A stretch of DNA of 34,987 bases, from assembly GCA_938083015.1 (NCBI GenBank), contig CALKCX010000001.1:1-34987 (forward strand). Direction: 5' to 3'. The notes beneath the pieces were generated by a model. The model did no database searches. It was not told the origin of the DNA and saw only the letters and a list, made by a program, of their open reading frames with translations. Position numbers and translations under genes: made by a program. Below, in pieces: positions 13,315 to 30,279 of the stretch. This DNA comes from an uncultured Microcaldota archaeon. GTDB lineage: Archaea; Micrarchaeota; Micrarchaeia; Anstonellales; J096. Position 1 is the first letter of the stretch. Each line of letters begins with the position of its first letter.

Positions 13315-13473
13315 ATGAATAAGTTTGTGAAAGCAAGAATAATAGGAGCGAGGGCATTGCAATTATCATGTGGTGCAGAACCTAATATAGATGCGAATGT
13401 AAAAGATACTATAGAATTAAGCTATATGGAATTTAAAAACGGAATTATCCCTATAGAGGTCAGAAAGAGATGA
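13315..13473 (+). CDS. rpoK: DNA-directed RNA polymerase subunit RpoK (Rpb6/omega homologue)
   Basis: A 52-residue protein, below the track cutoff. It reads MNKFVKARIIGARALQLSCG followed by AEPNIDANVKDTIELSYMEF and ends GIIPIEVRKR. The ARIIGARALQLS and IPIEVRR elements are the Rpb6/RpoK core, which clamps the largest RNA polymerase subunits together. It is about the shortest form of the subunit, with no N-terminal extension. Its stop overlaps the start of the Cys-rich lipoprotein gene (ATGA), so a housekeeping gene and a surface protein gene share a transcript. Confidence 0.93.
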   Translation: MNKFVKARIIGARALQLSCGAEPNIDANVKDTIELSYMEFKNGIIPIEVRKR

Positions 13474-14306
13474 GATGGATTCTAGGTCTTGTAGTATTGC
13501 TTATTTTATTTTCTGGATGTATAGATACTGGTCAATCGAAGGTTTGTAGTATAGATGCAGATTGTAAAACTTATCAGCAATGTGTAAACGGTACATGTAC
13601 TCTTAGGCCTGGATCATGTGAAGGTGATAAAGATTGTCAATTCTATGAACTATGTGATAGACGAGAGAATAGATGTGTTGTTAGAGAAGGATTTTGTGTA
13701 AATAACAATCAATGTAAGATTTACCAATTTTGTAATCTAACTACGAAAAGATGTCAATCTATTCCAGGATTCTGTGATAAAAATAATGACTGTGATAGTT
13801 GGCAACAATGTGATACTAAAATAAATAGATGTGTACCAAAACCTGGTTATTGTTTAGAAGATAAGAATTGTAGATCTTGGGAAAAATGTAATAATTTCAA
13901 TAGATGTGAACCATTACCTGGTAGATGTAATGTTGATCAAGATTGTAAAAGTTACGAATATTGTGATAAGAGAAATAATAAGTGTACTCCTAAACCTGGT
14001 TATTGTAATGTACACGGCGATTGTGATGAAAAATGGCAATACTGTGGAAATGATAATACATGTAAACCTTTATTTGGAAGATGCAATACTGATTCGGACT
14101 GTGCTGAATGGGAGATATGTAATAAATTTAAGAAAACATGTGAACTTGCACCAAATAGATGTTTAACTAATCAGCATTGTAAAGATTGGCAATACTGCGA
14201 TTCATTTAATGATAAGATGTGTAAACCTTTGCCTGGTAGATGTGACAGGCAAGAGGATTGCCCTAAAGGACAGATATGCGATACGACGACACACAGATGC
14301 AGGTAA
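13470..14306 (+). CDS. Secreted lipoprotein-like protein with ten four-cysteine repeats
   Basis: 278 residues. The N-terminus MRWILGLVVLLILFSGCIDT is a signal peptide with a lipobox-like FSGC, so the protein is probably lipid-anchored outside the cell. The rest is ten repeats of about 26 residues with the pattern C-x4/5-[DN]C-x3-[WY]-x2-C-[DN]-x5-C-x-P-x-PG, as in RCNVDQDCKSYEYC and NKCTPKPG. That is 40 cysteines, probably two disulfides per repeat. The layout recalls EGF- or Dickkopf-like small disulfide domains, but no family is recognised. A role as a rigid surface stalk or adhesin is inference. A protein disulfide oxidoreductase is encoded 6 kb away. Confidence 0.85.
   Translation: MRWILGLVVLLILFSGCIDTGQSKVCSIDADCKTYQQCVNGTCTLRPGSCEGDKDCQFYELCDRRENRCVVREGFCVNNNQCKIYQFCNLTTKRCQSIPGFCDKNNDCDSWQQCDTKINRCVPKPGYCLEDKNCRSWEKCNNFNRCEPLPGRCNVDQDCKSYEYCDKRNNKCTPKPGYCNVHGDCDEKWQYCGNDNTCKPLFGRCNTDSDCAEWEICNKFKKTCELAPNRCLTNQHCKDWQYCDSFNDKMCKPLPGRCDRQEDCPKGQICDTTTHRCR
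13543..14306 (+). repeat. Ten tandem ~78-nt coding repeats (Cys4 units)
   Basis: Each unit encodes about 26 residues with four cysteines and an ending like PLPG or PKPG. The DNA copies share tgt spacing and phrases such as cctggtagatgtaa but have diverged at many positions, so the duplications are old enough to have been selected for protein pattern more than for DNA identity. Confidence 0.85.
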
Positions 14307-15011: not shown

Positions 15012-16616
15012 TTAACACGTAAATATGTATTTATCTTTGTCTTTAATTACATAACCTATTCCTATTAAGAATAATCTTTCTTTAGATAGGTGTTCTTCAT
15101 CAATATATCCTTCTATAATATCAAGAGATTCGGGATTGACCTCTTCATCAGCTAATAACAGTTCTTTAGGTATTATTACCTTTATCTTTACAGGTTTTTT
15201 TGCCCAATCTACAACTGGTAAATCATTTGCTTGTCCATAATAGTATACATCGCCCACTTTTTTTACAACTCCTATACCTTTAAGATTTAACACATCTGCA
15301 AGTTCACGCTTATCCACATATATAGTTCCTTCCCAATAGATGTTTTTCCCATCTTTCTGTTTTAGAAGTTTTAAATTAATAGGAATTGGATCTTTGAAAA
15401 ATGTTATCTTATCTATTCTTCTTAGTTTCTTTTCCATTATCTCTCTATTTATATCTAAAAGCATTTTCCATTCTACTATTGTTTCTTGCTTACCTGGTCC
15501 AAATCTGCTTACAAACTCTTTAATAGCATCTTTTAGTATACCTCTTCTTCTTAAAGCTTTAATAGTAGCTAGTCTTGGATCATCCCACCCATCTACGATA
15601 TTTTTTTCTACTAGCTCTCTAATCTTCCTTTTTGATGTAGATGTACCTTTAATCTCTAATCTAGAGAAATGTATCAATACTATATCTCTTAATCCTAGAT
15701 CTCTTAGAATAGAATGGTATAGCTCTGTTCTAAGCTCATATTCTTTAGATCTTAAAGCATGTGTAACAAGTTCTATACTGTCTAATATAGGTGTGGCAAA
15801 ATCGTATGTTGGCCAGAATTTATATTTATTACCATGTATATAATGAGGATGTTCTACTACTCTAAACATTACAGGATCTCGCATAGTAGTATTATGAGAA
15901 GAGAGATCGCCTTTGTATAAAGCAACTACTTCTCCTTCTTTGTATTCACCATTTATAGCAGATCTAAACATGTCTAAATTTTCTTCTATAGAATTGTTTC
16001 TATCTTTAGTAGGTATTCCTGTTTTTCTCATCTCAGATATCTGTTCTTGAGAGCTATTAGTTAAATACATCTTATCTAAGCTTATAAGCTTCTCTGCGTA
16101 TTCATATAATATATCCATATAGGAAGATGAATGGGTGATTTTTGAATACTTTGCTCCTAACCATTCGATATCTTCTAACATGGCCTGTTCATACTCTTTA
16201 GAACATTTCTCTGGATTGGTATCGTCAAATCTTATTATCAATTCTCCTCGATATCGTTCTAAATATAGTATGTTTAACATTAGCGATTTTGCATGACCTA
16301 TATGCATATAACCTGAAGGTTCGGGCGCAAATCTTAATACAATATATTGGGGATCATCTGGTAATTTAAATCTCTTTTCTTCTCTTAAATATCTTTGATA
16401 ATCGTATTGATAAAATTCTTTTTCAACTTCACCAATATCCATACTGTTTACATTTTCTACTATTTTGCTTACAATAGGTATTATCTCTTTTACTTTAACT
16501 TTTAATTCAGGATGTTCATATAGTATCCATCCTATTACAGACTTTAAATCAGCTTTTCCATATTCCAACCTGTTTTTCAACACCTGTTTTCTAAAATCAT
16601 TATAATAATCTTCCAT
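15012..16616 (-). CDS. gltX: Glutamyl-tRNA synthetase, archaeal (GlnRS-like) type
   Basis: A 534-residue class I synthetase. RFAPEPSGYMHIGHAKSLML holds the HIGH motif (about 105-108), LIIRFDDTNPEKCSKEYEQ follows, and KGTSTSKRKIRELVEKN is the KMSKS-like loop. The C-terminal half has the beta-barrel anticodon domain of archaeal GluRS/GlnRS rather than the bacterial helical cage. Archaeal GluRS is non-discriminating and feeds the tRNA-dependent amidation route to Gln-tRNA, so a GatDE amidotransferase is expected elsewhere. The promoter (reverse tttttaaatat) lies inside the end of the upstream gene, about 25 nt before the ATG, implying a leaderless transcript. Confidence 0.93.
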   Translation of the reverse strand: MEDYYNDFRKQVLKNRLEYGKADLKSVIGWILYEHPELKVKVKEIIPIVSKIVENVNSMDIGEVEKEFYQYDYQRYLREEKRFKLPDDPQYIVLRFAPEPSGYMHIGHAKSLMLNILYLERYRGELIIRFDDTNPEKCSKEYEQAMLEDIEWLGAKYSKITHSSSYMDILYEYAEKLISLDKMYLTNSSQEQISEMRKTGIPTKDRNNSIEENLDMFRSAINGEYKEGEVVALYKGDLSSHNTTMRDPVMFRVVEHPHYIHGNKYKFWPTYDFATPILDSIELVTHALRSKEYELRTELYHSILRDLGLRDIVLIHFSRLEIKGTSTSKRKIRELVEKNIVDGWDDPRLATIKALRRRGILKDAIKEFVSRFGPGKQETIVEWKMLLDINREIMEKKLRRIDKITFFKDPIPINLKLLKQKDGKNIYWEGTIYVDKRELADVLNLKGIGVVKKVGDVYYYGQANDLPVVDWAKKPVKIKVIIPKELLLADEEVNPESLDIIEGYIDEEHLSKERLFLIGIGYVIKDKDKYIFTC

Positions 16617-16634
16617 GTTTTGATTACAATATTA

Positions 16635-16646
16635 TATTTAAAAATT
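16635..16646 (-). promoter_or_regulatory. TATA-like box of gltX inside the upstream gene's end
   Basis: Reverse-strand aatttttaaata lies about 20-30 nt before ATG 16616 and overlaps the last codons of the helical protein gene. There is no Shine-Dalgarno before gltX, so leaderless translation is likely. Confidence 0.4.
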
Positions 16647-17459
16647 CAGCTCTTCGTATAATTTGTTTTTTTCATCTTTATGTAATGACATACACGAGTA
16701 TATTACTAATTTTATCAACATCATTGCCTGCTCATTAGTATAAAAAGCTAACAATGTTAAATAGGTATCTTTAATATAATCTATTAACTTATTTTTATTT
16801 TCATCTATTTTACGCTGTATAGAAGGTAGATGTGTTTTATTTATCAATTTTCTCAATTCTATAATTTTTCTATCTAAAAAGAATATTTCAAGGAATTTTG
16901 ATCTAATGGATTTAGGTAATAACAGAGGATTATAACCTAATGGAAAATAAGACATGTCTATTATTGTATTTGCCAATTCCGGGGTATATGGTATTTCGTT
17001 TTCTATTGCAAATATCAAGGCCTGTACTTTCATTATGTTATCCTCAATATTATCGTCTATTATCGTATTTATAACATTTTTTATAATCTCTTTTTCAATT
17101 ATCTTACCTTTTGATCTAAAGTAATCGTAAATTAAATATACCAATGGGTCGTATTCACCATAAGCATATGGTTGAAGATTACTTAATAATACTTCCACGT
17201 ATTCTTTTAATTCTTCGCTTTGATTAATTCTCTCTAATAAGACTGCTGCTTCTTGAAATGTAATTCTTAATTCTACTAACAATTGTATAGCATTGTTTAT
17301 ATACCTGTTATCGAGATATCTTTGAAATAGCTTAATATACAATATGGCCATGGATAGTTTATCTTCTTCAGTTAAATGTTTAGATTTTTTAAATGAATAT
17401 TCGGCTAATTGTAAATAACCATTCGCGTATAATACTTTTGCCGCTATATTGTATATCAT
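16638..17459 (-). CDS. All-helical (TPR-like) protein encoded with the Rad50-like gene
   Basis: A 273-residue soluble protein that appears nearly all helical. The N-terminal part (IAAKVLYANGYLQLAEYSFKK, then DNRYINNAIQLLVELRITFQ) has the paired-helix rhythm of TPR repeats, and no catalytic motif is visible. It is not Mre11: there are no DxH, GNHD or GHxH metal motifs. Its ATG overlaps the Rad50-like stop as ATGA and is preceded by cggtgataag, a strong Shine-Dalgarno. This coupling suggests the product works with the Rad50-like ATPase. Function unknown. Confidence 0.65.
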   Translation of the reverse strand: MIYNIAAKVLYANGYLQLAEYSFKKSKHLTEEDKLSMAILYIKLFQRYLDNRYINNAIQLLVELRITFQEAAVLLERINQSEELKEYVEVLLSNLQPYAYGEYDPLVYLIYDYFRSKGKIIEKEIIKNVINTIIDDNIEDNIMKVQALIFAIENEIPYTPELANTIIDMSYFPLGYNPLLLPKSIRSKFLEIFFLDRKIIELRKLINKTHLPSIQRKIDENKNKLIDYIKDTYLTLLAFYTNEQAMMLIKLVIYSCMSLHKDEKNKLYEELNF

Positions 17460-19672
17460 CTTATCACCGTATAATTAATAGATAAATCTCTACTTCTCTC
17501 TCTATCTAACCATATCTGTTGATTCCAATTTACCCCTAATTTTAATCTATCGTCATGGGTAATTATTATAAATTGATCTATTGATTCCATAGCAAGTTTA
17601 TTTATATTATCTATTAAATTATCTATTGAGAGATCGTCTAGATTATGAGTAGGTTCGTCTAATATTATTACTCTTAATTTCTTTGATATTATATCTAATA
17701 TACCTAATCTCATCGCTAAAGCATATACTGTTTTCTCTCCCCCGCTCATTCTATCTACGCTAACTAATTTATCACCTGTCTTAATAGTTAATTCATAACC
17801 TTCTTCATTTACAACTATCTTTGGATCCCCGTATATTTTACCATAATAAAGACTATTCCAATACTTTTCTAAATTCATGTTCAATACATCTATCAACCTT
17901 GCCCTACTTTTTACCATAAGATCTTTCATTTTACTATTTATTTCATCAAGATCTTTCCACAAAGCTCTTTTCAATTCTAGATTTTTTTCTCCTTGTTCTA
18001 ATTCTTCTAAATAAGGTAATAGCTCTTTTTTATCTCTTATACGAGCATTAATTGACGATTTTATCTGTTCTATAGTTACTATTATGTTTTCTATACTACT
18101 TCTCAATGAGGATAGTTCAGAATTAACATTTAAAAATTCTTGATCTATATTTTTTAGTCTTTCTAACTCTTGAAGCAATGCGGTTAAATAAGCTTCTTTA
18201 TTTTTCAATTCTTCTTTATATTTATCAACTTTAGCTTCAATTTCCTTTTTTCTATCTAATTTTCTCTCTATTTCAATTAGCTGTTGTTGCTCGTTTTTTA
18301 GCAATTCTTCGTCATCTAATTTCTGATTAATTATATTGTTAATCTCTTCTACTTTTTGTCTATGATCTTCTATAGAAGTATTCAATGAATTTATATTCTT
18401 TTTATTATCTTCTAAGAGTTGATTTAATTCTTTTAATTCTTTTTCCATGTTATTTAATGTTTTCTCCATATTAGTTTTAACATAATTTATAATATAAGCT
18501 AAGATGATAACAAAGAGTATTGACAGAATACCTATGTTAAATAACAATATTGCCAATATGATAAGAGGTATTCCTAATATTGTTTTGTTTAATAAATCAA
18601 TCTTCTGTCTTTGTTTATTTATCTCTTGCTTATAATTTTCTATTCTATAATTAATATCTTTATTCTTCTCTTCCATTATCTTTATTTGGCCGATCATCTC
18701 TTGTATTTTAAGCTCTATATCTCTTTTCTGATCTTTTAGGTTATCATTTATTCTCTTTTTTTCCTCTATCTCTTTTAATTTTTGTCCAATTTCTTCTAAT
18801 TTAATTCTAATCTGTTCTTTATCTAAATCTATGTTATAAGTTTTCAACTCATCTTCTAATCTTTTTATCTCATCTCTTAATTGAGCTATAGTTCCCTTGT
18901 TGATATCGTACTCGGTCTTATATTTTTTATGTTCATTATACTTCTTTGATATCTCTGGAAGTTTTTGTTTTAAAGCAATTTCTCTTTGTTCTCTATCTTT
19001 CAAAATTTTTTCGTATTTATCCAATTTCTCTTTCAATACTTTCAATTCCTCTTCTATATTCATTAATCTCTGTTGATATCTTTTTTTAATTTCTATCAAA
19101 ACTGCCATATTCTCTTTAATTTCTTTATCTATTGCTTTCATCATAATTGTTATCCTATCTATTCTAGTTTGATGTTGTTCTATACCAAATATCGTATCTA
19201 AATAAGTCTTTAGTTCCTTAGGTCTTAAATTCAATATTTTATATATACCATCTTGGGCACCGTATAGGACTTTTAAGAATATATCTCTTTGTATACCTAG
19301 CATTTTCTCTACTTCTTTAGATATTTCATCATTATTCCTTGTCTTAAGTTTATCATCTATATATAAGCTACTCTCTTCTCCTTTATTACCAGCGTATATA
19401 TTTCTTTTAATATTCACCTTTCTATTTTGAACAATGAATTCAACTTCTATATTCGCCGATTTAGCTCCATCTCTAATGAAGTCCTTTTTATTAGTCTTAG
19501 CTATTGATCTATAACTATCTGTTATTGAACCAAATAATCCATAAAGTATACCTTCTATTATACTAGTTTTACCAGATCCGTTTTTACCAAATATCAATAT
19601 TTTGCCTTTGTTAAAAGATACTTCTGTATTTTTATGAGACATCCAATTAGATAAGTTAACTCTTGTAATCAT
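17456..19672 (-). CDS. Rad50/SMC-like ATPase with a transmembrane hairpin in place of the zinc hook
   Basis: A 738-residue ABC ATPase of the Rad50/SbcC type. The N-terminal Walker A is LIFGKNGSGKTSIIEGILYG, the C-terminal signature is DRMSGGEKTVYALAMRLGI, and Walker B is RVIILDEPTHNLDD. Long coiled coils fill residues about 185-360 and 400-590. Rad50 normally has a CxxC zinc hook at the centre. Here the centre (about 361-398) is two hydrophobic helices, TILGIPLIILAILLF and LSILFVIILAYIINYV joined by a tight NIG turn, and the whole protein has no cysteine. The coiled coils would be pinned to the membrane with the ATPase heads in the cytoplasm. Bacterial YhaN-type ATPases are a possible precedent. 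It lies in an operon with a membrane protein and a helical protein; no Mre11, HerA or NurA is in the window. Confidence 0.82.
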   Translation of the reverse strand: MITRVNLSNWMSHKNTEVSFNKGKILIFGKNGSGKTSIIEGILYGLFGSITDSYRSIAKTNKKDFIRDGAKSANIEVEFIVQNRKVNIKRNIYAGNKGEESSLYIDDKLKTRNNDEISKEVEKMLGIQRDIFLKVLYGAQDGIYKILNLRPKELKTYLDTIFGIEQHQTRIDRITIMMKAIDKEIKENMAVLIEIKKRYQQRLMNIEEELKVLKEKLDKYEKILKDREQREIALKQKLPEISKKYNEHKKYKTEYDINKGTIAQLRDEIKRLEDELKTYNIDLDKEQIRIKLEEIGQKLKEIEEKKRINDNLKDQKRDIELKIQEMIGQIKIMEEKNKDINYRIENYKQEINKQRQKIDLLNKTILGIPLIILAILLFNIGILSILFVIILAYIINYVKTNMEKTLNNMEKELKELNQLLEDNKKNINSLNTSIEDHRQKVEEINNIINQKLDDEELLKNEQQQLIEIERKLDRKKEIEAKVDKYKEELKNKEAYLTALLQELERLKNIDQEFLNVNSELSSLRSSIENIIVTIEQIKSSINARIRDKKELLPYLEELEQGEKNLELKRALWKDLDEINSKMKDLMVKSRARLIDVLNMNLEKYWNSLYYGKIYGDPKIVVNEEGYELTIKTGDKLVSVDRMSGGEKTVYALAMRLGILDIISKKLRVIILDEPTHNLDDLSIDNLIDNINKLAMESIDQFIIITHDDRLKLGVNWNQQIWLDRERSRDLSINYTVIR

Positions 19673-20406
19673 ATTCTTCTAATAGATAACGTAAATTTAT
19701 TAAAATATAGATTTGCCCCCAATATTATTAAGAATGGTAAGAATAAGAATACGTTTATCAATAGCATTAACCATCTTATAACTTCAAGAGGTAACACGAT
19801 GTTTATCAAGAATATCGTAATTAAATTAGCTAAAGTAGCAATTATTCCATAGATTAGCGGGTATATTAATAATTCTTTTCTAAACAGATATATTTTTTTT
19901 ATGGCCTTTTCAAAATTCACTTCTTCTATGACAATTGCATAAGGTATTAAAATTAAAATATAGCTTATTAAGAATATTATAATTGATAAAACCCAGCTAT
20001 CAAAAGAGTAAACATAACCGTATATTGATATAGATAATTGTAAAAGGAACCAGAATATGAAAAACATGTATACTTCTGGTAAACTATGTTTTATGTTTTT
20101 TATAAAAGCTTCTTTTGGTATCTGTTCAGTTCTATATTCTTTTGTTGCCAATGTCAATACTACAAATACTAAGCTATAGATAAACATTGTAATTAAATAA
20201 AATAAAATTATTAAAAACATTTGAAATAAGTCTATTTCGGTTAGTTTAGAAATCCTTATAAATATGCCGAATGTTGACAGGTAAATATATTCTGGCAATA
20301 GATGTAATAATAAGGCAGATGTTACTAGAAGGATAAATCCTACGATTAATACTAAATCTAAAGATTGTAAATACACATCTATGCTACTCTTAAGTTCGTA
20401 GATCAT
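19669..20406 (-). CDS. Six-helix membrane protein upstream of the Rad50-like gene
   Basis: A 245-residue polytopic protein with about six hydrophobic segments. The pattern of long helices with IPYAIVIEEVNFEKAIKKIY between segments resembles the glycerophosphodiester phosphodiesterase membrane domain / DUF7847-like proteins, which are widespread and mostly of unknown function. No catalytic residues stand out. Its stop overlaps the Rad50-like ATG by 4 nt, so the two are translationally coupled. That suggests it is a membrane partner of the ATPase, which itself has a membrane hairpin. Confidence 0.65.
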   Translation of the reverse strand: MIYELKSSIDVYLQSLDLVLIVGFILLVTSALLLHLLPEYIYLSTFGIFIRISKLTEIDLFQMFLIILFYLITMFIYSLVFVVLTLATKEYRTEQIPKEAFIKNIKHSLPEVYMFFIFWFLLQLSISIYGYVYSFDSWVLSIIIFLISYILILIPYAIVIEEVNFEKAIKKIYLFRKELLIYPLIYGIIATLANLITIFLINIVLPLEVIRWLMLLINVFLFLPFLIILGANLYFNKFTLSIRRI

Positions 20407-22875: not shown

Positions 22876-24390
22876 ATGGGATTAGTACAGATTATACTGA
22901 ATAATACAGACATACTGGCATTGGGACTTGGTATAGGCCTGTCAGTAGCCTTAATAATATATTTTTACAATCTAATATTTAAGAAAGATCAGGCAAAGGT
23001 AAGTGAAACTATAAAAGATGTGGCAATTGTAATATTTTATATTATCGTATTATTCGTATTAGACAGTATATATAATGTCATGCTTGCCAATTGGTTAGGT
23101 TTATCTACAGTACCACCTGGTACTAATTTAAGATTAGCAGAAGCTGTAATATACAAAGACATAGATAAGTTTAGAGAGAGCTTAATGTACGTATACTTGG
23201 CCGATTTTATATTAAACTTATTTGGATCTTTTCATGTTCATATACATACTGCTTTAAATCCTGAGATGTCTTTGTTACCAGGTTCATCGATATTTAAACG
23301 TCTAGCAAATGCAACTGCCACATTGCTATCTGATAAAGCTGCTTTAGATCCGTATAAAAGTGAGACCGATTTAAATATATTTTCTGTATTCTTATCGCCT
23401 ATGCAAATGCTATATACTGCTTCTTATGGTATGTTTCTAATATTAGTATATAAATACGTTAAACTTACAATTATAACTTATCTTCCTATGATTATGTCTA
23501 TATTTGTTCCATTAGGTCTGTTATTGGTATTCTTACCTATTACTAGAAAAGTAGGTATGACAATACTGGGCTTAGCTGTTACTCTTTACTATCTATTCCC
23601 CGTATTTATAATATACGCGGATACTGTTTTGAGAAATATGCCAGATCTTGATTATAGATATATATCATCTTATATATCTCCTACTATAGTAGAATTTCTC
23701 GATAGATCTTCTTCTCCTCAAAATCCTTCTCAGCTAATAGGGTATAAATATGCTTTTATAGAGAGAGAAAAGCAATATAGTATGCAAAATATAAATCAAA
23801 TTGTTTCTGATAATAATTCAATAGCTGATAGTCAAAAGGAAACAATTGGCACAATATACTTGTATTCTTTTGTTGATGCTCAATCTATATGTGAAAACAA
23901 TGTTGATGATGAAATATGTAGAGAATATGAAACTGTAAACATAGGTAGTTTTAGATCTGAAAACTCTTTAGCACCTGTAGCATCTTTAGGGGGCAATATT
24001 TTGAAATTTGCTGCCTTAGCAAGAACTAGTGCAGCTATTAAAGAAGTATTGCAATCATCTTATGTTGTTGCAGTAACAAATCCAGTATTGCTTTTATTAA
24101 GAAACATAGCTAATATTGCTATAAACATAGCAATATCCACGATATATATTACGCAGATAATGCCTATTCCTGGAGTATCCCAGTTAATATACGGTGCTTT
24201 GAATATTCCGTTTATTCCATTTTTGATTTTCAAGACAATATTAGAAGTATTGATAATCGTATATAAAAACATTCTATATGGATCAATAACGATATTTTTA
24301 GATATATTCTTAATAATAACAGGTTATAGAGCTGTTGCTTCTATAATAGGAGCAGAACAAAGAATACTAGGTTTAGAGAAGGTGTTATAA
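22876..24390 (+). CDS. Large membrane protein A of the six-paralogue array
   Basis: 504 residues, with a central extracytoplasmic stretch between two groups of membrane helices. The N-terminal half has TM1 (about 15-35), a charged loop KDQAKVSETIK and TM2, then the exo loop NLFGSFHVHIHTAL. The array core motif sits at about 210-245: LPITRKVGMTILGLAVTLYY followed by LFP. A long polar loop (about 260-370) carries C-x8-C (SICENNVDDEIC). The C-terminal tag is GAEQRILGLEKVL. It is the most divergent copy in the core because Leu-Arg is replaced by LV. No family recognised; the TrbL/VirB6-like overall style is a guess. The stop overlaps the next ATG by one base. Confidence 0.75.
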   Translation: MGLVQIILNNTDILALGLGIGLSVALIIYFYNLIFKKDQAKVSETIKDVAIVIFYIIVLFVLDSIYNVMLANWLGLSTVPPGTNLRLAEAVIYKDIDKFRESLMYVYLADFILNLFGSFHVHIHTALNPEMSLLPGSSIFKRLANATATLLSDKAALDPYKSETDLNIFSVFLSPMQMLYTASYGMFLILVYKYVKLTIITYLPMIMSIFVPLGLLLVFLPITRKVGMTILGLAVTLYYLFPVFIIYADTVLRNMPDLDYRYISSYISPTIVEFLDRSSSPQNPSQLIGYKYAFIEREKQYSMQNINQIVSDNNSIADSQKETIGTIYLYSFVDAQSICENNVDDEICREYETVNIGSFRSENSLAPVASLGGNILKFAALARTSAAIKEVLQSSYVVAVTNPVLLLLRNIANIAINIAISTIYITQIMPIPGVSQLIYGALNIPFIPFLIFKTILEVLIIVYKNILYGSITIFLDIFLIITGYRAVASIIGAEQRILGLEKVL

Positions 24391-25466
24391 TGTTACCAAT
24401 CTTCAATACTCTAATATTAACATTAATCGGTATTGTTATAGCTTACATAATACTATTGTATCTTCTATCTAGATTGAGCAATAATGAAGAATTGAAAAAT
24501 AATTATAAGATAGAGATGCAACAATTGTTACTTAGTGTATTTCTATTTATAGGAATACAGGCCATTGCCAATATAGTAAATCTTTTTTACAATACATATA
24601 CTCAAGGTTTTGATTTATTCGATTATATATCAATACAATTGACTTTAATGCTTAGAAATCTTCATGAATTTGCAGCTCATCTTACATTGACAGCTACTTT
24701 AATGAAGATGTTTGGAGAATTTACAAATATAGGTTATCCTCATGGTAATTTTGGATCGGCAAAATTAGTAGCATACCCAGGAGTAGATATTTTATCATCA
24801 GTTACATTTCAAATTAGAGATTTAATGTTTATAGCTACTGGTGGATTAGTAGCACAATCTATATTAATGGATGTTATAAAGACGTTATCTTTAACATTGT
24901 TATTACCAATAGGTATTGTTCTTAGAATATTACCTATATTTAGACAGTTTGGTAATGAATTAATAGGTTTATCCGTATCTTTATATATAATCATGCCTCT
25001 TATATACGCTGTATTTTTCCAGACTATGATAGATTTAGCAAGCTATAGAGGGGGGTTTATCGAGAGATTCACAGCTTATTATTTAATGTTATCCGATAGC
25101 GATCCTACTATGCTAGCACCAGATAAGATGTTTGTAAAAATACAGAATAATACCAGTATAATGAATACGGCCAATGTTATAATGGATTATGCCGATAATC
25201 AATATTTTAAAGATATTAATAGTGAACTTGAAGGTAAAACTTCAAATCCAGATAAATTGTATAGGATGTTTGAATTGTACATGTCAACATCTCTTGTAAA
25301 AGCAGGTTATGTACTTGGACTTCCTATATCTTTTTTATTCGTATTTGGCCTATATATATACGCAGCAGGATTTTTAGTATTTGCATTTGGTCTACCTGGA
25401 TTTGCACTAGCAATAACATTGACAGCTGCTAAAAGTATAAGAGACTCTTTAGAGAGGTTGACTTAA
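24390..25466 (+). CDS. Membrane protein B of the six-paralogue array
   Basis: 358 residues. TM1 (about 7-29) is followed by LSRLSNNEELKNNYKIEMQQ, TM2, and an exo loop with NLHEFAAHLTLTATLMKMFGE, then two more helices. The core motif is at about 172-205: LRILPIFRQFGNELIGLSVS followed by LYIIMPLIY. A variable loop (about 215-300), two final helices and the tag KSIRDSLERLT complete it. It has the same order of elements as copies C-F but no exo-loop cysteine pair. It begins one base before the end of copy A's stop. Confidence 0.75.
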   Translation: MLPIFNTLILTLIGIVIAYIILLYLLSRLSNNEELKNNYKIEMQQLLLSVFLFIGIQAIANIVNLFYNTYTQGFDLFDYISIQLTLMLRNLHEFAAHLTLTATLMKMFGEFTNIGYPHGNFGSAKLVAYPGVDILSSVTFQIRDLMFIATGGLVAQSILMDVIKTLSLTLLLPIGIVLRILPIFRQFGNELIGLSVSLYIIMPLIYAVFFQTMIDLASYRGGFIERFTAYYLMLSDSDPTMLAPDKMFVKIQNNTSIMNTANVIMDYADNQYFKDINSELEGKTSNPDKLYRMFELYMSTSLVKAGYVLGLPISFLFVFGLYIYAAGFLVFAFGLPGFALAITLTAAKSIRDSLERLT

Positions 25467-25467
25467 T

Positions 25468-26664
25468 ATGCATCCTATTATACAATTGGTTATTCCGATT
25501 ATAATCATCTCGATAATAATATACGTCATTGCACAGTTATTAGCTAGAATACTAAACAAGCCCGATATAGTAATGTATGTAAACATGGAGCTTCTAAACA
25601 TAATGATCTTTTTAATACTTTTAATAATCATACTTTTCTTAATAGATAATATTGTATACTTATCAGTATTAACTTTAAATCCTGATGCTGAAAACGAAGT
25701 TTGTAAGGCAAACAACATACCTAATTATAGATGTCACATAGTTATTTCTGGTTACTTTCTTGAATCTATACTTAGAGAGCTTACCGATTATTATATTCAG
25801 TTAAATTCAATGGTTATGGTAAATAATTTCTTTAAGTATATGGGGGGTGTAAAAGGTATACAGGGTGACAAGTATATAAAAATACAGTTTAATCCCCTTG
25901 TGTATATCGTAGATGGTTATCTAGAGCCTATAATTAGACAAACCCAGACTATGCTGCAATTCGTATTGGCCCAATTTATAATATTATGGTATATCACTTC
26001 TCCACAATTCTTTATTGGCTTTTTAACATTCGGCGTTATATTAAGAGTATTTGCACCTACTAAAACAGCTGGTGGTCTAATTATTGCATTGATAATAGGT
26101 TTATATTACGTATTTCCTATGGCCTATGTATTATTAGATGTACATTATAGATACGCATACGATGGTACATATGGGTTTAATAAAATCAATACTTTTAGAG
26201 TTACTGAACATCTATTTTCTATATTTGGTCTACCATCTGGTCTTGATAAGGCCATTAATTCTATAACAGGATTTATAGATAAATATAAGGATACGCAAAA
26301 CATACCTGTTAATGAGGCAGAAGAAAGAATAGGAGGTATTGCAGCTACTTTATCACAATTATCTTCAGTAGCATCTATATTGTTAAAAGCAGCTGTTATG
26401 GTATCTTTTATGGTTAGTTACCAATTAATATCTATGTTTCCAGTAGCTACTTTAGGTTATGGTTTACTTATTGATATGGTCCCTTCTATTAAGAATAATA
26501 TCGTGAATATACCTGTTCTTCTTCTTAATATATATACGGAATTCTTTTTGATATTTGGTGTTTTAATATATATTGCATTAATAAGTACTGTGGCATTTGT
26601 AAAAACTTTATCTCCTATTCTGGGTGGTGACGTTGAAATTGCTGGTATTACTCGTATTATTTAG
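25468..26664 (+). CDS. Membrane protein C of the six-paralogue array
   Basis: 398 residues. It has TM1, the loop RILNKPDIVMYVNMELLN, TM2 and an exo segment with C-x9-C (EVCKANNIPNYRCHI), then REL/YYIQLNSMVMVNNFFKYMG, paralleling the RTL...ESMG stretch of copy F. The core motif is at about 190-220: LRVFAPTKTAGGLIIALIIG followed by LYYVFPMAY. A polar loop follows, then final helices and the tag GGDVEIAGITRII. It starts one base after B's stop (no Shine-Dalgarno visible). Its last codons contain the Shine-Dalgarno of copy D. Confidence 0.75.
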   Translation: MHPIIQLVIPIIIISIIIYVIAQLLARILNKPDIVMYVNMELLNIMIFLILLIIILFLIDNIVYLSVLTLNPDAENEVCKANNIPNYRCHIVISGYFLESILRELTDYYIQLNSMVMVNNFFKYMGGVKGIQGDKYIKIQFNPLVYIVDGYLEPIIRQTQTMLQFVLAQFIILWYITSPQFFIGFLTFGVILRVFAPTKTAGGLIIALIIGLYYVFPMAYVLLDVHYRYAYDGTYGFNKINTFRVTEHLFSIFGLPSGLDKAINSITGFIDKYKDTQNIPVNEAEERIGGIAATLSQLSSVASILLKAAVMVSFMVSYQLISMFPVATLGYGLLIDMVPSIKNNIVNIPVLLLNIYTEFFLIFGVLIYIALISTVAFVKTLSPILGGDVEIAGITRII

Positions 26665-27898
26665 TATATTATGGGCCAATTCATGTGATAACAATGGGTT
26701 TATTGATGAGACTTGTATAGAACAAGAAGTATTCGGTAAACCTGATGAAACTGTTATCAATAATATGATTAAAAAAATCTTTATTACTGCTAGAAATGCT
26801 ACAATAGGGTGGATAGATAATGTAATAGTAAACATGATAGGTCCTTTTACTGTCTGTAAAAACCCTTCTCCTATTAATATTGGTAATTTATTATCAACAG
26901 TAGCAACAATAATCATTATATCTTTTCTCTTAGTATTATTACTTCATTATATATATACTATGTTTAATACCTCTAGTAAATTCTCTATATTAGATGAGCT
27001 CGCTAATGGAATAATTACGCTATTATCTATTATAATAATAGCTGTCGTATTAAATTATTATGCTGTCAATAGTATATTTATCTATGCTAAAACATATGTT
27101 GTAGATGTGATGGTGAATTTCTCATTCTTTACCATGTTGTTAAAAACTATTGAAACAATGTTATTTGCATTGGCCAATATTGTATTACCTCTTGGACCAG
27201 CTGATGCTCGTGGTATATTCTCTATATCTTTCTCTCAACTGTTTTCAATAGTATTTAAATCTCTAGATGTGATTAAAACAATATTCTCAACAAGTATATT
27301 AGAATACGTATTTAAATTATTCTTACTATGTATAGGACCAAAAGTAATATTAGAAGTAATCTTACCTATAGCTGCATTACTTAGAGCATTTTACTTTACC
27401 AGACCAGGAGGAAATATGTTATTAGGCCTATCTATCGCCTTTATCGTAATATATCCTTTGATTATATACATATATTATAACATATATCAACATATCTCGA
27501 TAATATGGAATGTTTATTTTGCAGAATCAGCTTATAGGATGATTTCTGGAATAGCAATAGGATTAGTATTTGTACTTACTCCTTTAGCTGTTAAGGCCTT
27601 AGTTGTTACATCTTTTAATAAAATAGCAGATGTGGCAAATATAGGTAATATAATAAATGCGATAAATCAGAATGCCCAGACTTTACAATTTTTAGGTTTA
27701 AACATCGGGGGCATTATATCAATATTGCAATTTGTACCAGCTTTATACTTTTTAGTATTCGGGTATTTACAATTGGCATTGATAGCAGCATTGATATTAG
27801 GACCTCTTGCTTTATATCTTACAGTATCTCTTACAGGTCAAATTAGTAAAGCTTTAGGTACTGAAATAAACATAGCTGCTTTATCTAGGTTGATATAA
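26633..27898 (+). CDS. Membrane protein D of the six-paralogue array, with signal peptide
   Basis: About 421 residues. The start is uncertain. The track uses GTG 26624, but GGTGGTGA at 26623-26630 looks like a Shine-Dalgarno, so I choose TTG 26633, giving the signal-like MKLLVLLVLFSILWANSC. It overlaps copy C by 32 nt. The mature N-terminus has C-x9-C (SCDNNGFIDETC) and another Cys in FTVCKNPSP. Two helix groups flank the core at about 248-280: LRAFYFTRPGGNMLLGLSIA followed by FIVIYP. The tag is GTEINIAALSRLI. It is the only copy with an evident signal sequence and a long secreted N-terminus, besides copy E's polar one. Confidence 0.72.
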   Translation: MKLLVLLVLFSILWANSCDNNGFIDETCIEQEVFGKPDETVINNMIKKIFITARNATIGWIDNVIVNMIGPFTVCKNPSPINIGNLLSTVATIIIISFLLVLLLHYIYTMFNTSSKFSILDELANGIITLLSIIIIAVVLNYYAVNSIFIYAKTYVVDVMVNFSFFTMLLKTIETMLFALANIVLPLGPADARGIFSISFSQLFSIVFKSLDVIKTIFSTSILEYVFKLFLLCIGPKVILEVILPIAALLRAFYFTRPGGNMLLGLSIAFIVIYPLIIYIYYNIYQHISIIWNVYFAESAYRMISGIAIGLVFVLTPLAVKALVVTSFNKIADVANIGNIINAINQNAQTLQFLGLNIGGIISILQFVPALYFLVFGYLQLALIAALILGPLALYLTVSLTGQISKALGTEINIAALSRLI

Positions 27899-27899
27899 T

Positions 27900-29291
27900 A
27901 TGATAGGTATTGACAATATTAATGGTACAAACATTGAAGATAATGTAAATTCTATGATAAACTTTATGATAAATCAGATATCAGTAACTTGTACAGACCC
28001 TATACAAGAGAGATGTGATTATGAATCTAAAGATATGACAAGTATATATCAAAACATTAAATCCAATATGGGAATATTGAAGACAGTTCATCAATCTATA
28101 ATAGATGCAATAGCTAAGATGATCGATTATCTTTATAGAACTACTACAGGTCAAGGAGATATGTTCGGAGACAGATATTGTTCTAGTTTAAACTTCAATT
28201 ACATAACCTCTGTTATCGGATTAGGTATCTTCTTAATATTAAGTTATCTATTAATAGAATTCGTAGCTAGGATAATAGGTAATAACAAATATCAGGCATT
28301 AGCTAGAAAAGAGATAGCAGATATATTAATATTATTACCTTTATTAATAGCTTTATTGTATTTGCCATGCATGATATATATTGATAATATAAGTATACAT
28401 CAAAGATCTTTATTATATATACATTCGGCAATATTCTCATCTTTCGTATCAATCATACCTTTAACGTATTACGCTGGTACTGTGGCCGCCCATAGTGTAA
28501 GTGTTGTTCAAAATCTAGGTGGAGGTGCTCCTCAAACTGCACCTTTAGCTAGTCAATATTATGAATCTGCTTTAGCATTGACTAGACAGGCCACAACGTT
28601 TTTAGCATTGTCATTTGTATGGGTAAATACATTTACATATCTCTACGATATATTTACTTATGGATTTGTTAGATATCTATTACCAATAGCTATCATATTA
28701 AGATTTATACCTTTTACTAGATCTTTAGGCGGTGGATTATTAGGTTTAATTGTAGCTTCCAATTTATTTATTCCAATAATATTTTCAATAAACTACGAGA
28801 TTATAAAGATGTTTGGTCCAGCATATTTTCATATGGATAATAATAAAGTTACGTTAAAATTCAACCCTTGGATAGAAATGGTATTATCTGTATTTGCCAG
28901 CGTATTCATATTGGCCTTAATAGTAAATCTAACCATGGCATTGAGATTTTTTGGTAATATTAAACACGCTATATCAAGATTTAGAATTTGGCAGACCATT
29001 AGACAAGGATTTAGAAGATTGTTAGGTTCTGTTATAGGTATAGGTGGAGGTGTATCTACTACCAGTATATCTATATTTGCATCAATATCATCTGTGACTA
29101 CTACATCTATTAGATTATTTGCATTTCAAATTCCTCTGTTAATACTAATAGCAATTCTCATCGTATCGGTAATAATATTCAATATATTATTGCCTACCAT
29201 AACATTCTTATTCCTTACATCTACTATTAAATACTTATCAGCTATATTTGGTGAAGAGTTTGATCTTGCAAACTTAACTAGGTTGGTGTAA
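27900..29291 (+). CDS. Membrane protein E of the six-paralogue array
   Basis: 463 residues. A polar N-terminal domain of about 95 residues carries Cys residues (SVTCTDPIQERCDYES and DRYCSSLNF), so it is probably outside the cell if the fold is like copy D. TM1, the loop RIIGNNKYQALARKEIADIL and TM2 match the other copies. The core motif is at about 265-295: LRFIPFTRSLGGGLLGLIVA followed by SNLFIPII. A basic stretch FRIWQTIRQGFRRLLGSVIG and serine/threonine-rich SVTTTSIR precede the last helices. The tag is GEEFDLANLTRLV. Its ATG is one base after D's stop. Confidence 0.75.
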   Translation: MIGIDNINGTNIEDNVNSMINFMINQISVTCTDPIQERCDYESKDMTSIYQNIKSNMGILKTVHQSIIDAIAKMIDYLYRTTTGQGDMFGDRYCSSLNFNYITSVIGLGIFLILSYLLIEFVARIIGNNKYQALARKEIADILILLPLLIALLYLPCMIYIDNISIHQRSLLYIHSAIFSSFVSIIPLTYYAGTVAAHSVSVVQNLGGGAPQTAPLASQYYESALALTRQATTFLALSFVWVNTFTYLYDIFTYGFVRYLLPIAIILRFIPFTRSLGGGLLGLIVASNLFIPIIFSINYEIIKMFGPAYFHMDNNKVTLKFNPWIEMVLSVFASVFILALIVNLTMALRFFGNIKHAISRFRIWQTIRQGFRRLLGSVIGIGGGVSTTSISIFASISSVTTTSIRLFAFQIPLLILIAILIVSVIIFNILLPTITFLFLTSTIKYLSAIFGEEFDLANLTRLV

Positions 29292-29292
29292 C

Positions 29293-30279
29293 ATGGAGCA
29301 ATATCAAATTGTAGCTATATCAATTGCTATGATTAGTGTAATACTAGCAGTATTACTATATCAAATATCGAAGATATTTAATCTACCAGGATTGAAGAGG
29401 TATTCTGAGATGTTTATATGGGAAGCGTTTTTAACAATACTTTTAGCTTTATTCTTATTCTTAATCTTAGATAAAGTTAATAGCTTTCTTTTTGACGTAT
29501 CTGTAAGTATGTTTAAAACTATAAATCTAGATGTTTCTAATGTTCAACACAAGAGTCCTATGGCATTAGCTAGAGAGGTATTAAGAACATTAATATCTGA
29601 TTGTTATCTAAACATGTACGGTTCTTATTTAATGGCAAGGGCAATTCTTGAATCTATGGGCAGCTCTCTATCAGAAGTAGGAGCAGAGAATACTAAATTA
29701 CCTACTAGTACGGCCGTATATTCAATAATATGGATGAAAGATCTATTGAAGTTATTCCATTTTTTAATATGGACAGGAATGGTAATGCTTAAGATCATGT
29801 ACTTCTTCTCTGCTTATTATCCAGTTTTGATAATGCTCGGCATAATATTAAGAGCTTTTGAACCTACTAAATCAATGGGAGCTTATTTAATTAGTTTAGG
29901 AATTGGATTATTTGTAGTATTTCCATTTGGGTATAATCTGGGGTTAGTAATAAATTATAATGAAATGTTATGTAATATGCCTAGAGAGATTAGAAATAAT
30001 ACTGAAATTGCAACTGGATTTTACAGTATGTTTGAAATAGGTGAAAATGCAAAAAGTTTTGTAGGAGTAGTTACAATGTTAAAGACTTTAACAGATTTTA
30101 CAATAGGTTTATTAGTAGCTCCGCATAAAGTAGTAGAATTAATATACGCTGTAACAGCAGTCACCTTAATAACTCCTCTTATAGCTTTTATAATAGCTTT
30201 GTCTTTCATAAACATATCTACTACTGCATTAGGGGGAAGAATTAGTGAAATCGGAAGAGGTCTGTTTAAGTTAATTTAA
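29293..30279 (+). CDS. Membrane protein F of the six-paralogue array
   Basis: 328 residues, the shortest copy and the clearest view of the common plan. TM1 (about 8-28), ISKIFNLPGLKRYSEMFIWE, TM2, then an exo helix LRTLISDCYLNMYGSYLMAR and ESMG, TM3-4, the core at about 184-215 (LRAFEPTKSMGAYLISLGIG followed by LFVVFPFGY), a short loop with EMLCNMPRE, TM6-7 and the tag GRISEIGRGLFKLI. Two loop cysteines could pair. It ends the operon; the serS promoter overlaps its stop codon. Confidence 0.75.
   Translation: MEQYQIVAISIAMISVILAVLLYQISKIFNLPGLKRYSEMFIWEAFLTILLALFLFLILDKVNSFLFDVSVSMFKTINLDVSNVQHKSPMALAREVLRTLISDCYLNMYGSYLMARAILESMGSSLSEVGAENTKLPTSTAVYSIIWMKDLLKLFHFLIWTGMVMLKIMYFFSAYYPVLIMLGIILRAFEPTKSMGAYLISLGIGLFVVFPFGYNLGLVINYNEMLCNMPREIRNNTEIATGFYSMFEIGENAKSFVGVVTMLKTLTDFTIGLLVAPHKVVELIYAVTAVTLITPLIAFIIALSFINISTTALGGRISEIGRGLFKLI

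Follow-up and report, generated by a model that had tools for sequence, protein, structure and literature searches.

The DNA examined here is a window of 34,987 nucleotides (positions 1-34,987 of contig CALKCX010000001.1) from the 518 kb assembly, in 15 contigs and 84% complete, of an uncultured Micrarchaeota archaeon belonging to a group from hot springs; the proteins referred to below as those of the window are encoded within it. On its minus strand lie three consecutive genes that specify a 245-residue polytopic membrane protein (the 6TM protein, for six transmembrane segments; 19669-20406), a 738-residue Rad50 (17456-19672) whose zinc hook has been exchanged for a predicted membrane hairpin, and a 273-residue helical protein with a TPR-like N-terminus (16638-17459). 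The next gene downstream, also on the minus strand, is that for glutamyl-tRNA synthetase (gltX; 15012-16616). The positions of the trio and the ATGA-type 4-nucleotide overlap at each junction agree exactly with those given in an initial annotation of this DNA. There the overlaps were taken to argue for one functional unit; however, overlaps of this type are common in such a compact genome, joining nine of the 27 pairs of adjacent same-strand genes that the window contains, and translational coupling of the trio is therefore weak evidence for such a unit. The locus was compared within a five-species genus comprising the window species, two further species with a hairpin Rad50 (genomes G001 and G003) and two congeners with a hooked Rad50 (G002 and G004).

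The 738-residue protein is identified as Rad50 by its best NCBIfam models (E = 4e-47). Its closest solved sequence, from a search of Protein Data Bank (PDB) sequences, is M. jannaschii Rad50 (E = 5e-43), and its predicted fold best matches 7zr1, the Rad50 of the Chaetomium MRN complex (E = 4e-26). In the alignment the bipartite ATPase head of the ABC type is intact, from Walker A and the Q-loop through the signature to Walker B and the H-loop: the Walker A motif GKNGSGKTS occupies residues 29-37 (19562-19588, minus strand), while the SGGE signature, the Walker B motif LDEP, the D-loop and the H-loop THDD, all intact, lie within residues 643-708 (17549-17746, minus strand). The helices of the coiled-coil arms span approximately residues 165-376 and 383-608 in an AlphaFold2 (AF2) model whose quality is modest (mean pLDDT 72, pTM 0.48). 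Hydropathy peaks near residue 670, seen in many relatives, stem from the C-terminal ATPase head and not from a membrane helix. An Arcadin-4 identity was rejected as, despite a model match with E = 8.5e-27, several Rad50 models score higher; Arcadin-4 and the archaeal SMC-related proteins (ASRPs; ClsN and Sph), which mostly carry a zinc hook (PMC9389158), share the superfamily and general architecture of the window Rad50, but their models likewise score below those of Rad50. With the zinc-hook Rad50 proteins of archaea (M. jannaschii, P. furiosus; models Rad50_Sulf NF041034 and PRK03918) the window protein has in common the heads, the split Walker A and B motifs, arms of similar length, vertical inheritance and the fold. 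It differs from them in the absence of CPxC, in the predicted membrane hairpin that fills the hook column, in its location away from mre11 and in scores that fall far under the equivalog cut-offs.

The zinc hook has been regarded as a defining part of Rad50, and it is debated whether the hook must open or simply joins the two arms. Rad50 was read from nearly 90 Micrarchaeota loci, and of the 81 full-length proteins compared 78 present a CPxC zinc hook in mid-protein, at the apex of the coiled coil. The remaining proteins, which lack CPxC and indeed any CxxC, are those of the window, G001 and G003, and these three alone have a strongly hydrophobic centre: their maximum 19-residue hydropathy is 3.0, 2.9 and 2.3, whereas the next protein reaches 1.45 and the median lies near 0.5. 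In the window Rad50 this centre corresponds to residues 364-398 (TILGIPLIILAILLFNIGILSILFVIILAYIINYV; 18479-18583, minus strand; hydropathy 3.0), a predicted membrane hairpin that aligns in the columns of the hook between arms similar in length to those of hooked Rad50s. The hairpin had been proposed in the initial annotation and is supported here; its position at the hook site had been missed. In all three species the segment consists of 35-43 residues devoid of D, E, K and R, with lysine or arginine near both ends, and it is probably membrane-inserted or transmembrane. The AF2 model of the window protein places a helix-loop-helix turn, with low local confidence, at the coiled-coil tip (residues 377-382). 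Only a few hairpin positions, I368, I380 and I385, hold the same residue in all three species, and the retention of hydrophobicity nonetheless argues for selection and not chance. It is barely credible that the segment represents a decaying and functionless hook region or an assembly artefact: domain loss does occur in reduced genomes, but here the segment is found in three species with separate assemblies and open frames, its hydrophobicity is kept in proteins of only 37-40% identity, and the ATPase motifs are complete.

The hairpin could alternatively act as a substitute dimerisation module and nothing else, the hydrophobic tips packing together inside or outside the membrane in an otherwise ordinary Mre11-Rad50 complex that has no membrane role. 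The main role proposed for the hook is the stable joining of two arms, and other dimerisation modules can replace it, as demonstrated in fission yeast by the MukB hinge (PMC6969161). Like the window Rad50, these engineered proteins have an exchanged apex module on a Rad50 that is otherwise kept, although they are laboratory-made and carry soluble hinges, in contrast to the predicted membrane hairpin, which arose by a natural swap. Such a role would also be compatible with the shortness of the hairpin. We nevertheless consider it unlikely, given that the long uncharged stretch, with basic residues near both ends, has the hallmarks of membrane helices and in water would aggregate, and that rad50 is co-translated with the gene for the 6TM protein.

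A maximum-likelihood tree of the joined Rad50 head domains unites the three hairpin species in one clade (98), to which the hooked pair of G002 and G004 is sister (100), the genus itself being a clade (100). All other sampled Micrarchaeota Rad50s are hooked, indicating that the hook is the ancestral state, and the monophyly of the hairpin species inside a genus with a hooked sister indicates that the swap from hook to hairpin happened once, in the ancestor of the three Micrarchaeota species. The same 6TM gene stands before the hooked rad50 genes of G002 and G004, again with an overlap of 4 nucleotides, the G004 copy being cut by the contig end, and in G002 the same disulfide oxidoreductase gene lies beyond it; these common upstream genes provide synteny in support of rad50 orthology. 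Judged by tree and synteny, the window protein is a true Rad50 that has lost its hook, descended by vertical inheritance from the hooked Rad50 of its own lineage. The head tree rejects the acquisition of a hairpin Rad50 from a foreign source by horizontal transfer.

The trio had been described as having no Mre11, HerA or NurA, and this holds for the adjacent genes only. The genome does contain a gene for a 349-residue Mre11-like phosphoesterase with the expected metal motifs, on contig C8 (C8:56679), and, like each other member of the genus, it has two HerA-like DUF87 proteins; NurA was undetected in four of the five genus members, the window species among them, and also in several other Micrarchaeota. 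The Mre11 of all three hairpin species retains the DxH, GD, GNHD, HQ and GHxH motifs. The orthologues in G001 and G003 share 43-46% identity with the C8 protein and that of G004 35%, and the same nucleotidyltransferase gene follows mre11 in the hairpin species and in hooked G004. A single Rad50 was found per genome in each of the three hairpin species, the one other, weak match in the window genome being a normal, separate SMC. Two further observations concern these loci: on another contig hooked G004 encodes a further Mre11-like protein, shorter than the first (L112 111-944), and near mre11 in all three hairpin species there is a conserved operon of a DUF87 (HerA/VirB4-like) ATPase and membrane proteins (L171 10856-16705).

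The proposed association of Rad50 with a polytopic membrane protein is strengthened by the finding that throughout the five-species genus rad50 comes next after the 6TM gene; six transmembrane segments are predicted in the G001-G003 orthologues. The 6TM family is distantly DUF7847-like, two relatives scoring 18.5-19.3 bits against a curated cut-off of 28.7 bits, and the congeners from G001 and G002 giving no match. It is present in 86 of 99 Micrarchaeota genomes, yet outside the genus it never adjoins rad50 in the loci compared. At 11 of the 15 such loci examined (L086, L088, L091-L096 and L098-L100) a type 2 isopentenyl-diphosphate isomerase gene is found within the 1.5 kb flank, which suggests a link to lipid or isoprenoid metabolism. 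The helical protein is confined to the genus (five of 99 genomes). It is all-helical with a predicted helical-repeat fold, and its residues 1-66 superpose on TPRs with Z of 9-10 upon structural re-ranking, which speaks for a TPR-like N-terminus and no more; TPR_2 matches the family at 1e-4 in one of its five members, and Foldseek returned no significant match. Its gene directly follows rad50 in the hairpin clade only. The hooked congeners G002 and G004 carry it on a different contig from rad50, immediately before gltX in the case of G002. As 6TM-rad50 is found genus-wide and the helical gene stands beside gltX in G002, the hairpin lineage combines 6TM-rad50 with helical-gltX. The three-gene order is thus conserved among the hairpin species, but the trio is a lineage-specific junction and not an old unit.

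These data bear on the suggestion that the 6TM protein, Rad50 and the TPR-like protein form a membrane ATPase module independent of Mre11 and serving chromosome tethering or membrane remodelling, distinct from Mre11-type resection. The order of the trio is kept in three species, and the TPR-like protein (63-67% identity) and the 6TM protein (51-53%) are better conserved among them than Rad50 itself, both of which speak for such a module. The arrangement is however improbable: all three genomes encode an intact Mre11, whose locus keeps its neighbour gene in hooked G004, and offer it no second Rad50 to use; in the hooked congeners rad50 and the TPR-like gene are not linked, the latter sitting with gltX in G002; and the 6TM family elsewhere is mostly found beside the isomerase. 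Of the two findings which, according to the initial annotation, would together tell against the module, a sole Rad50 with a distant mre11 was made, whereas a lack of conservation of the trio was not, its order being kept within the hairpin clade. The presence in all three genomes of a sole Rad50 together with an intact, distant Mre11 instead argues for a membrane-anchored Mre11-Rad50 complex.

The genes flanking the trio are of housekeeping type, encoding aminoacyl-tRNA synthetases, S19e and the disulfide oxidoreductase. Defence, also put forward in the initial annotation, is a very unlikely role for the trio; the reading considered here is that of an anti-phage or anti-plasmid system in which an SMC/Rad50-like sensor ATPase is coupled to a membrane effector in the manner of Lamassu or MADS. 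PADLOC models of the SMC/Rad50 superfamily (mad3, LmuB) do match the ATPase, but at the level of the superfamily and with lower scores than the Rad50 models. The trio partners and the neighbours tested gave no match to defence models and include no co-encoded effector of the kind that accompanies LmuB and other SMC-like defence ATPases. Moreover, the gene is vertically inherited, and so far all members of the clade have proved to carry it in one fixed housekeeping position.

The best explanation, and in our judgement a fairly probable one, is a membrane-anchored Mre11-Rad50 complex in which the hairpin takes the place of the hook. With a hairpin that spans or enters the membrane in place of the zinc hook at the coiled-coil tip, the Mre11 nuclease would remain cytoplasmic together with the ATPase heads, while the two Rad50 arms would be fixed side by side in the membrane through their apices, possibly with the help of the co-translated 6TM protein. 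Anchoring of two hairpins in the membrane would thereby assume the arm-joining role of the hook, and the Mre11-bearing heads would reach from the membrane into the cytoplasm, where DNA ends could be captured and trimmed, or the chromosome tethered, at the membrane. The sequences themselves establish the swap, its single origin, the intact motifs of the ATPase and of Mre11, the sole Rad50 and the coupling to the 6TM gene; insertion into the membrane, pairing of Rad50 with the distant Mre11, dimerisation via the membrane, contact with the 6TM protein and any part played by it or by the TPR-like protein are inferred. Several points weigh against it. At 35 residues the window hairpin is short for two membrane passes and might enter the membrane only in part, the apex is poorly supported in the AF2 model (pLDDT about 50), and the hairpin is seen in three species only. 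The Mre11 is divergent, with no PDB relative found by phmmer, its gene is not adjacent to rad50 and its family scores are weak, so that its naming relies on the motifs, on graded similarity to the better-scoring relatives of G004 and G007, which match archaeal Mre11 models, and on synteny. Finally, the genomes of the hairpin species are incomplete metagenome-assembled genomes (84-88% complete), although the chance that a hooked Rad50 was missed in all three would be about 0.3% if each assembly independently lacked a given gene with a probability of 12-16%.

YhaN proteins can also have membrane segments, and a comparison with 12 examples of YhaN-type or AAA_27-like ATPases from genomes and plasmids showed a central hydrophobic hairpin in seven (Monoglobus, Vescimonas, Lachnospira, Latilactobacillus, Deinococcus and two Natrinema plasmids; loci L184-L190), situated at 44-53% of the protein length; the alphaproteobacterial, G139, G123 and G109 examples have none. 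Six of the seven genes, Vescimonas being the exception, are preceded by a nuclease or phosphoesterase gene. The seven loci lie on plasmids of Bacillota, Deinococcus and Natrinema. Helicase genes accompany those of Natrinema, one of them also with a PD-(D/E)XK nuclease, and ParA/ParB genes that of Deinococcus. These YhaN-type (YhaO/YhaN) proteins of four Bacillota, one Deinococcus and two Natrinema thus resemble the window Rad50 in having a predicted membrane hairpin in place of a hook, whereas the gene upstream of the window rad50 encodes the 6TM protein and there is no YhaO-like nuclease gene at that position. A YhaN identity for the window protein was rejected, as it matches the N-terminal AAA_27 domain at 12.9 bits against a Pfam cut-off of 22 and YhaN examples at 25-27 bits, compared with over 150 bits for its hooked congeners. 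As the window Rad50 is not a YhaN, the hairpins appear to be convergent and gained independently. Rad50-like ATPases of YhaN type are a precedent for the central hairpin, and the genuine archaeal Rad50 of the window is an independent variant; neither a transmembrane Rad50 nor YhaN together with Rad50 was the subject of any paper found in an open-access literature search, a scope that does not prove absence.

The wider proposal, on which our judgement is evenly poised, is that a bona fide Mre11-Rad50 has been turned into an integral membrane machine by the swap of hook for hairpin, independently of the YhaN type, that it processes DNA ends at the membrane with a 6TM partner, and that anchoring of the apex is a recurrent natural alternative to zinc-mediated dimerisation. 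A natural hairpin swap in the only Rad50 of a cell would support the view that the apex is a joining module open to exchange. That YhaN-type proteins have the same architecture suggests that Rad50-like nuclease complexes anchored in the membrane are commoner than has been appreciated. The occurrence of hooked and hairpin species in a single genus makes membrane-located break repair directly testable.

Elsewhere in the window, six consecutive genes on the plus strand (22876-30279) encode predicted proteins of 504, 358, 398, 424, 463 and 328 residues, none of the six with a Pfam match; in the relatives the first five are polytopic, with three to seven transmembrane segments, and G001 and G003 keep the order for as much of the run as their loci cover. 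A 278-residue protein encoded at 13470-14306 (plus strand) matches DUF5885 and, more weakly, cysteine-rich families (DUF7107/Dickkopf-like). Its gene overlaps the next at 14276 and is kept in G001 and G003, and the protein, with one transmembrane segment in the relatives' copies, is possibly exported.

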